A stretch of 45,464 nt of DNA, taken from NCBI GenBank assembly GCA_021413805.1, contig JAIOPR010000052.1, positions 1-45,464 on the forward strand. Reading direction: 5' to 3'. The translations under genes were made by a program, and so were the position numbers. Origin of the DNA: Planctomycetota bacterium (GTDB taxonomy: Bacteria; Planctomycetota; MHYJ01; WSZJ01). This document shows positions 25,835 through 28,504 of the stretch, in pieces (the first letter of the stretch is position 1; every line of letters begins with the position of its first letter). A model generated the notes under the pieces. It did no database searches, was not told the origin of the DNA, and saw nothing but the letters and a program-made list of their open reading frames with translations.

Positions 25835-26104
25835 ATGCCCACCTGGAAAACGAGTTTCATCCGGATCGTCGGCGGTCGAGAACACCTCGACGCCGCGATG
25901 TCCCTGATGCAGGAGCACCGGGACGTTCGGCACCGGGTGTGCGGCGACTGCGTGGAAGCGACGGGACCGGGCATCGACCTGGGAATCTCCGGGCACCCGA
26001 ACCGGGTCGATCACGTGATCGAGACGATCCGGCTGCTGACTGTGAGCGTGGACCCTATCCTGGCGCCGCCTTTCCGCTACTTCGTGCGGTCGGGAACCGC
26101 GTGA
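25835..26104 (+). CDS. Small hypothetical protein (89 aa), divergent paralogue of the 25536 ORF
   Basis: Ungapped alignment to the preceding ORF with shared R-E, R-x-C, DL, G, N, IR-L pattern. Confidence 0.7.
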   Translation: MPTWKTSFIRIVGGREHLDAAMSLMQEHRDVRHRVCGDCVEATGPGIDLGISGHPNRVDHVIETIRLLTVSVDPILAPPFRYFVRSGTA

Positions 26105-26331
26105 AACAGAACACTCGCTCCTGCTCCAATTGCGATGGGTGGGGATTCTGGTACCCCAACTCGACGAATGAGGAGATCAACTGGAACATGGCCGCGCGCG
26201 TTCATCCGGACGAGGGCTTCCTCGGCACTCCCGGTTTCCTGACAACCCTGAGCATGCGCCAGCCGGTCCCTATCCGCTGCCCCGAGTGCGGCGGCAGGCC
26301 CGGCAGCAAGTCGCCCCGGCTCCGGAGCTGA
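26101..26331 (+). CDS. Small zinc-ribbon-like protein (half DnaJ-type CxxCxGxG)
   Basis: GTG start overlapping upstream TGA (GTGA); VKQNTRSCSNCDGWGFW...RCPECGGRPGS. Confidence 0.65.
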   Translation: MKQNTRSCSNCDGWGFWYPNSTNEEINWNMAARVHPDEGFLGTPGFLTTLSMRQPVPIRCPECGGRPGSKSPRLRS

Positions 26332-26371
26332 GAACTGATCGCGCGGGTCCAGCCGCGCCGGCTCAAGCCTA

Positions 26372-26535
26372 AGTAGCTCCCCGATAATTTCCTGCCATTC
26401 AGCCGCCGCGAATTTCGCCGGCTGGCAAGGAGGAGACCGGAATCGATGCGGGACGGAGCATCGATGAGGATCGACGACGACGCCAGACGGCGAAAGGCGC
26501 GCGGATAGGTGGCAGAAAATTATCGAGGAGCTACT
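26372..26535. mobile_element. MITE-like element, 26-bp TIRs, TA duplication within a CTAG target (IS630/Tc1-mariner-like)
   Basis: Left AGTAGCTCCCCGATAATTTCCTGCCA (26372-26397); right TGGCAGAAAATTATCGAGGAGCTACT (26510-26535); 24/26 complementary; flanked by C-TA ... TA-G. Confidence 0.8.
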
Positions 26536-27191
26536 TAGCGCTCCGGAAAATGCCGCACTGCATGAGCCACGAGTTGCGTCGCGTTCTCAAGGCCGAGCTT
26601 CTCCTTGATGTTGGCGCGGTGCGTCTCGATCGTCTTCACACTCAGGCACAGCCGCCGCGCGATCGAGCGCGTGCCGATCCCTCGCCCGATCAGCTCGAAC
26701 ACCTCCATCTCGCGATTCGTCAGGCGGCCCACCGGCGACACCGAAGTGCCCGGCGTCCGGCCGGCGACGGAGGCAATGAGGGTCTCGTTCATCCGCGGGC
26801 TCACGTGAATTCGACCCGCAAGGACCTCCCGCGCGGCGGAACGAAGCGTGTCCGCTGCCTCCTGCTTCATCACGTAGCCCATCGCGCCCAGGTGCAGCAC
26901 CCGCTCCGCGTAGAGCTGTTCGTCATGGATCGACAGCACCAGGACCGGGATCCCCGGGTGGCGGGTGCGCAGATCCTTGAGCAGGCTCAATCCACTTCCC
27001 GCTCCCAGCGACAGGTCGAGGATGACCAGGTCGGGAGCCGCAGCGGGGATCCTCTCGAGCGCCTGCACGGCCGTCGCGGCCTCGCCGCAGACAGCCATGT
27101 CGGGCTCGGCCGACAGAAGCGACGTCAGCCCGGCGCGCACGACCTCGTGGTCGTCCACCAGGAACACTTTCGCCCGGGTTTTGGTTTTCAT
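26535..27191 (-). CDS. NarL/LuxR-family response regulator
   Basis: KVFLVDDHEVVRAGLTSLL, LVILDLSLG; LTNREMEVFELIGRGIGTRSIARRLCLSVKTIETHRANIKEKLGL. Confidence 0.95.
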   Translation of the reverse strand: MKTKTRAKVFLVDDHEVVRAGLTSLLSAEPDMAVCGEAATAVQALERIPAAAPDLVILDLSLGAGSGLSLLKDLRTRHPGIPVLVLSIHDEQLYAERVLHLGAMGYVMKQEAADTLRSAAREVLAGRIHVSPRMNETLIASVAGRTPGTSVSPVGRLTNREMEVFELIGRGIGTRSIARRLCLSVKTIETHRANIKEKLGLENATQLVAHAVRHFPER

Positions 27192-28504
27192 GCCTGGCTC
27201 CCTGAACAATTTTCCTGCAGGGCGCAAACGACCTGGGTTCCCCCGCTCAAGCGCGGCAGGAAGACGATCCCCGCGTCGATGAGGCCGGCGCGGTAACGCA
27301 TGTTGCGGATCCCGGCGCCTCCCTGCCGGAGTCCTTCCTCAGGGAGACCGCGCCCGTCATCGGCGATCTCCATGACCAGGGTCCCCCCGCAGTCCTGCAG
27401 CCCCACGAGAATCTCGCGAGCCTCCGCGTGCCGGATGGCATTGGTCACCGCTTCCTGCGCGATCCGGTACAGATGCCAGGCGGCGTCGCGGCCATGGACG
27501 ATCACGTTTGCCGAGCACTCGAAGCGGACGGACAGCCCGGAATCGCGGGCGACGTTGTCGGCGAGGTCGCGAAGAGCGCTGACGAGCCCCTGGGGCTCGA
27601 CGTCCACCGGCAGGAGGCCGCGCGAAAGGACCCGGGTCTTTTCGAGGGCGCGCCGGGCCCCATCGGCAAGATGAGCCGCGTCGCGCGCGTCCGCCCCGCC
27701 CCTGGCGGAGAGTCGTTCGGCGAGCGCCCGCGCCAGACAAGTCAGGCCTGTCAGTTCCTGGCCCAGGTCGTCGTGCAGCTCGCGGGCAAGGCCCTTGTGC
27801 CACTCGTGCAGCTTCTCGGAGAATTCCCTCTGCAGCCGACGCCGCTCGATCAGTTCTCCAATGCTGCGCCCGATGTCCGCCATCGTCTCTGGAAACGCCT
27901 CGGGCGGTTGCACGACCTCATCGGAGAAGAACTCGAAGATCGCCACGACCTGTCCATCCACATCCGCGGGATACGCGGCCGCCGAGCGGATCTCCGCCTC
28001 TTCGGCCTGTTTTTCCCGCCCCGGAAGCGCTTCCCGCGCGTCCCTGGCCCACGTCGGGGGGCCCGGCGTGAGCTTCGAGTACCAGACAGCGGCAGGCCCG
28101 GTGGTCGCCGCCTGTCCGCGGTCCAGGATCCAGGCATGGGCCCAGCGAAAGCCGGAGTACTCGGCGATGCGCGGGAGAACGACATGGAGCGCTTCCGTGG
28201 CGGACTCGGCCTCGTTGGCGGCGCTGCTGACCGCGTGGAGCACGGCGAGGCGTTCGGTTGTCAGGATCGCCTGGCTGCGGAGGGCGTCGGACCTGGCGCG
28301 CCACGCCGTTTCACGGCGCAGCCACTCTTCGCGCGTTTCGCGAACCTCCTTCGAGGAACTCTCCTGGGGGAACGCCCCGGGCGTCCTGAGCGCGGCCGGC
28401 GCCGGGGGGATTGGCCACGGCGTCTCGCCTCGGGCGAGGCGGGCGGCGTCCGTGGATTCTGGTTCGCGCCGGCCGTCCATCGGCTCTCCAGTTCGAGGTG
28501 GCAT
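27188..28504 (-). CDS. NarL-type (HisKA_3) cytosolic sensor histidine kinase
   Basis: RELHDDLGQELTGLTCLARALAERL; HATPase ADDGRGLPEEGLRQGGAGIRNMRYRA; ATGA overlap with the response regulator. Confidence 0.9.
   Translation of the reverse strand: MPPRTGEPMDGRREPESTDAARLARGETPWPIPPAPAALRTPGAFPQESSSKEVRETREEWLRRETAWRARSDALRSQAILTTERLAVLHAVSSAANEAESATEALHVVLPRIAEYSGFRWAHAWILDRGQAATTGPAAVWYSKLTPGPPTWARDAREALPGREKQAEEAEIRSAAAYPADVDGQVVAIFEFFSDEVVQPPEAFPETMADIGRSIGELIERRRLQREFSEKLHEWHKGLARELHDDLGQELTGLTCLARALAERLSARGGADARDAAHLADGARRALEKTRVLSRGLLPVDVEPQGLVSALRDLADNVARDSGLSVRFECSANVIVHGRDAAWHLYRIAQEAVTNAIRHAEAREILVGLQDCGGTLVMEIADDGRGLPEEGLRQGGAGIRNMRYRAGLIDAGIVFLPRLSGGTQVVCALQENCSGSQA

Follow-up and report, generated by a model that had tools for sequence, protein, structure and literature searches.

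The element at the response regulator stop codon

The DNA analysed here, referred to as the window, is a stretch of 45,464 nucleotides (positions 1 to 45,464 of contig JAIOPR010000052.1) from the Planctomycetota bacterium assembly GCA_021413805.1, a MAG of 4.57 Mb in 377 contigs that is 82% complete. On the minus strand at 26535-27227 lies a response regulator gene with Response_reg and GerE/LuxR domains, and converging on it from the plus strand is a small ORF without a Pfam match (26101-26331). Between the two we find a MITE-like hairpin element of 164 bp (26372-26535, with AG...CT ends and no assigned strand), delimited by its sequence, its fold and relatives in the same genome. Its 26-bp terminal inverted repeats (TIRs), the left at 26372-26397 on the plus strand and the right at 26510-26535 on the minus strand, are identical at 24 of 26 positions. 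The element is flanked by C-TA at 26369-26371 and TA-G at 26536-26538, where the TA dinucleotides (26370-26371 and 26536-26537) are read as a target duplication; a C directly precedes the boundary at 115 of 139 family boundaries. The repeats, length and flanks given by the initial annotation agree with the sequence to the base, and when the element and one TA are taken out the remaining sequence is CGCTAGGCTTG, as it had stated.

The response regulator gene ends in ...CCG GAG CGC TAA on the minus strand, with its stop codon (26537-26535) at the right end of the element, which supplies the final A. The orthologue in the sister genome G002 (WSZJ01, Planctomycetota isolate X3_MetaBAT.40, a congener) has no element and ends in the identical last residue (HFPER*), which bears out the proposal that the insertion occurred without a change in the protein. 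Both neighbours of the element are conserved at the G002 locus, including the C-terminus of the small ORF. The end of this ORF is 38 bp short of the element, and the interval between them (26332-26368) is about 33 nt longer than its G002 counterpart. A pre-insertion allele ending in CGC TAG had also been proposed; the site is indeed empty in G002, but the allele there is CGC TGA GCCG, with no clean CTAG, and not CGC TAG G. Because the sister stop codon is TGA rather than TAG, the ancestral stop at this locus is not proven exactly.

When folded with DNA parameters, the entire element forms a single imperfect hairpin (-56.9 kcal/mol, z = -9.7), and none of 200 shuffles matches its folding energy. 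The new structured 3' UTR that had been claimed for the gene is real at the level of sequence, any function of it being putative. No ORF of 80 or more amino acids is confined to the element.

Copies in the host genome and in congeners

A search for further copies, as suggested in the initial annotation, returned six more copies or fragments in the host genome and dozens in four congeners. Those in the host are three near-full-length relatives of the window element (85-96% identity), one diverged copy, one copy cut at a contig end and one 92-bp derivative, so that the host catalogue comprises 7 copies including that of the window; across the five genomes, all of them incomplete MAGs, 74 copies or fragments were catalogued. 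Since further copies exist in the same genome, chance is excluded as the source of the window repeat. By BLAST of 61 genomes the family is found in the host and the four congeners only. Of 24 genomes of the class scanned with a covariance model built from 27 copies, 5 contain it, and these belong to one genus; the family is absent from the 56 other genomes searched by BLAST, of which 19, from the same class, were also searched with the covariance model. No similar DNA was found in phages or plasmids, nor in viral contigs searched with an exact core pattern. TIRs are present in every full-length copy, and the ends are of two types, AAGTAGCTCC or AAGCGGGTTCGG. In a tree the copies cluster by species, which indicates separate, species-specific amplifications.

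Shorter forms also occur, namely 61-bp palindromes, palindromes of about 36 bp and half-elements. The mini-palindromes at loci L240, L241, L242 (G003; 1001-1061, 61 bp) and L395 (202-237, about 36 bp) have kept the TIRs and lack the core, and those at L241, L242 and, by eye, L395 are located at gene stop codons. Read from the sequence, the 61-bp form corresponds to the full-length G003 form minus a deletion between two ATTTCGCCGG direct repeats; as it matches an internal deletion, an origin in place is indistinguishable from mobility of its own. At L177:3020-3160 (G002:C259) two tandem copies of a different palindromic repeat, GATTCCGCGGGTTGCTCCCTTCGGTCGCAACCCCCGGAATCAATGCTGACTCACCACTAGT, immediately follow a solitary family TIR. 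The G000 copies contain a small reading frame, ATGAGGATCGAC..., that runs up to the TAG of the right end; it was considered and dropped, as by eye it is broken in the G004 and G003 copies.

Element ends as stop codons

The relation of the elements to genes was assessed with a codon score derived from 128 long ORFs, which asks which of the six frames codes in the 150 bp beside each boundary; the resulting gene calls are statistical, and boundaries with a weak coding signal were counted as having none. At 46 boundaries a confident coding frame enters the element in phase with its first triplet, compared with 3 out-of-phase cases, at least one of which (L187) is a misplaced boundary; for decoy boundaries shifted 1-60 bp outward the phases are equal. 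Of the in-phase boundary triplets, 44 of 46 are stop codons (TAA 25, TGA 14, TAG 5) versus 51 of 93 triplets at other boundaries, a split indicating that ends which serve a gene drift from TAA to TGA or TAG, while elsewhere they drift also to non-stops. At least one gene ends in frame at the element end in 42 of the 74 elements or fragments, four of which have one gene on each side, and the gene ends are distributed over both arms (left 17, right 27).

An element-free orthologue with the same last residue was found at 8 of 10 loci (L206, L205, L182, L183, L185, L181, L176 and the window), the sister-species orthologues at the other two, L169 and L171, being of different length. The window is thus one case of a pattern across the family, in which the element end supplies the stop codon and the C-terminus of the protein is unchanged.

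Comparison with sister species, as opposed to sister strains, gave two-sided empty sites for the window element (in G002), for L183 and for L242. The clearest case is L242: in G003 two convergent genes end at opposite sides of a 61-bp element, and in G001 their counterparts overlap as CTAG with TAG as both stop codons, that is, a clean CTAG empty site for the homologous insertion. At L183 the element is missing in three sister genomes. The stop is followed within a few bases by a terminator-like inverted repeat; from this proximity, the insert would be upstream of the inverted repeat and probably within the transcript. The initial annotation had named, as the outcome that would favour a structured RNA over a MITE, a sequence with no further copies and a site conserved across relatives; this is excluded, as copies were found and the sister sites are empty. 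Last codons GAC and AAC, in place of the GAG and AAG of the orthologues, had suggested that the element brings the C before TA with it; the CTAG empty site of G001 weakens this reading.

Insertion preference

Both IS630 and ISY100 duplicate TA, and IS630 prefers the TA in CTAG (PMC2170065, and the title of Tenzen and Ohtsubo 1991 cited in it). The TA duplication and the CTAG preference expected of a MITE derived from IS630/Tc1-mariner elements are both found in the family, and it is because of this preference that insertions at stop codons exist. We counted the availability of CTAG on about 350 kb of fetched loci, where 24 unoccupied sites are intergenic, 14 are genic and 7 are at stops. Of 65 elements, 37 are at in-frame stops. 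The corresponding figure is 5 of 41 for unoccupied CTAG sites scored alike (p = 4e-6) and 7 of 31 when only non-genic CTAG sites are counted (p = 0.002), a baseline that is small and drawn from element-bearing contigs. The preference for CTAG alone predicts a share of about 12-23% at stops; the share seen is 57%, and as weakly coding boundaries were scored as none, the true value is probably higher.

This excess is not fully explained. The simplest and most likely account is that insertions harmful to genes or promoters have been lost. The two comparisons would also be expected if stops or gene ends were actively targeted, for example by a transposase reading beyond CTAG or coupled to terminating transcription or translation, but selection against promoter and intragenic insertions yields the same excess and the baseline is limited as described; we regard active targeting as unlikely.

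Covariation and the conserved core

Within the hairpin, 32 of 52 pairs change on both sides yet stay paired, far above shuffled and slid controls. Departures from pairing on one strand are more often G.T than A.C (16 pairs versus 6, p = 0.05). The conserved core, at 26428-26480 on the plus strand of the window, consists of AGGAGGAGACCGGAA, a variable inner hairpin and TGAGGATCGACGACG; over 27 copies its mean identity (GGAGACCGGAA ... TGAGGATCGACGACG) is 0.88, versus 0.63-0.67 in the outer arms. Compared between species, the copies differ less in the core than in the TIRs, the opposite of what is expected for a TIR-driven MITE.

Together with the location of the elements at gene ends, the covariation, the G.T bias and the conservation of the core over the arms could reflect a structured RNA (a 3' UTR stabiliser, processing site or terminator) that is selected at gene ends and has spread through its usefulness, the covariation then being a sign of RNA function. 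Palindrome-correcting template switching can give covariation of the arms without selection on RNA. It would suffice for the arms but not for the conservation of the core, and neither a better-conserved core nor covarying inner stems would be needed in a MITE driven by its TIRs, a point against the MITE reading. However, with gene ends on the left as well as the right arm, the element is transcribed from both strands, which makes a role for RNA of one strand the less favoured reading. Moreover, the same genes do without the element in sister species, no terminator-like T run lies close to the window copy, and the covariance models of Rfam 15 gave no match up to E = 1 in the window at 26300-26600. 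On balance, an RNA selected for function at gene ends appears improbable.

Candidate mobilising enzymes

An autonomous partner was sought with DDE_3 and IS630 profiles, with patterns for both TIR types and among solitary TIRs, and none was found in the five incomplete MAGs; inspection of solitary TIRs and the pattern searches in these genomes gave only half-elements or IS elements without family ends. What the searches showed in place of a partner was, in G001, a decayed IS630 and, in G003, an ISAzo13-family gene; both are without family TIRs. The latter is intact (L343:1381-2598, G003:C109; NF033519, 588 bits) and was rejected as the partner, as no family TIRs surround it. The initial description as an IS630-like MITE is supported in that copies, empty sites and the TA/CTAG flanks fit a MITE, but no IS630-family transposase with these ends was found in the five genomes. 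The element resembles IS630 and ISY100, which are Tc1-mariner elements, in its TA duplication and CTAG preference, and differs from them in carrying no transposase. Because no partner was found, we infer the enzyme from the insertions: the TA duplication, the CTAG preference and the TIRs fit IS630/Tc1-mariner, and such an enzyme would have mobilised the family.

A long palindrome dispersed mostly at gene ends, with GTAG near the end of some copies (TAAGTAG) and a G.T over A.C bias on one strand, also recalls REP/REPIN sequences, which would be moved as single-stranded DNA by a RAYT (IS200/IS605-type Y1) transposase. GTAG is lacking, however, from G003-type and most G004-type ends (AAGCGGG, AAGCAGC), the foot of the hairpin being TAAGCGG in G003 and mostly TAAGCAG in G004, and the symmetric TIRs, the TA on each side and the CTAG empty site are further arguments against this route, which we consider very improbable.

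Discussion

Taking into consideration the copies, ends, flanks and empty sites, the family very probably consists of non-autonomous TIR mobile elements (MITEs) that insert at the TA of CTAG and that are confined, as searched, to one genus of Planctomycetota. Insertion at this TA leaves a TA on each side, and owing to the AG...CT ends an insertion in the stop 'C TAG' rebuilds a stop (C TAA G...) for a gene on either strand; a CTAG that serves two convergent genes at once gives two rebuilt stops. The gene retains its exact C-terminus and acquires a long hairpin starting at the stop codon. The enzyme was most likely a DDE transposase of the IS630/Tc1-mariner type acting in trans, now lost or missing from the incomplete assemblies. 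The excess at stops would most likely arise from the CTAG preference, as CTAG is scarce inside the GC-rich genes of these genomes, together with loss of gene- or promoter-damaging insertions. A stronger version, in which stop codons are a safe harbour, with ends and TA duplication rebuilding stops on both strands, a true preference for stops beyond CTAG availability and a core maintained by an additional role in the new 3' UTR, seems doubtful to us.

Several known repeats are comparable with this MITE family. RUP of Streptococcus pneumoniae is likewise a short non-coding repeat with TIRs, inserted at TA in many copies and attributed to an IS630 transposase (PMC2229807). For RUP a partner, IS630-Spn1, is proposed to mobilise it in trans, and this pair serves as the model for the mechanism here, although for the present family no partner was found; RUP is, moreover, reported to favour IS elements, whereas the elements described here are mainly at stops and form, over their whole length, one covarying hairpin. 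BOX repeats of the same species supply the stop codon of 36 genes without evident truncation (PMC3049150) and are alike in providing gene stops; they are modular (boxA/B/C), while in our family each arm offers a fixed, in-frame end, and orthologues and empty sites show the C-terminus to be unchanged. ERIC/IRU and Correia/NEMIS are imperfect palindromes of about 100-170 bp with terminal TA and possible long stem-loops in transcripts (PMC2229807). By their description they are similar in size, terminal TA and stem-loop potential, and they differ in belonging to another phylum and in that exact placement at stop codons is not among their described features (PMC2229807). This is a real MITE family. 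Neither the family nor the regularity with which it occupies stop codons appears to have been described in the open-licence papers searched; an earlier description may exist elsewhere. What is new here is that the in-frame junction is fixed, whichever arm it lies on, together with the evidence from empty sites and orthologues, and the taxonomic group.

The family is a natural example of protein-sparing insertion, in which the rare CTAG of a GC-rich genome lies mostly outside gene interiors and partly at stops. Dozens of genes carrying the same hairpin from the stop codon onwards are a replicated natural test of what the sudden arrival of a 3' UTR hairpin does to an mRNA. They also illustrate that conservation and covariation of a hairpin past a stop codon can mark a mobile element and not a regulatory RNA.
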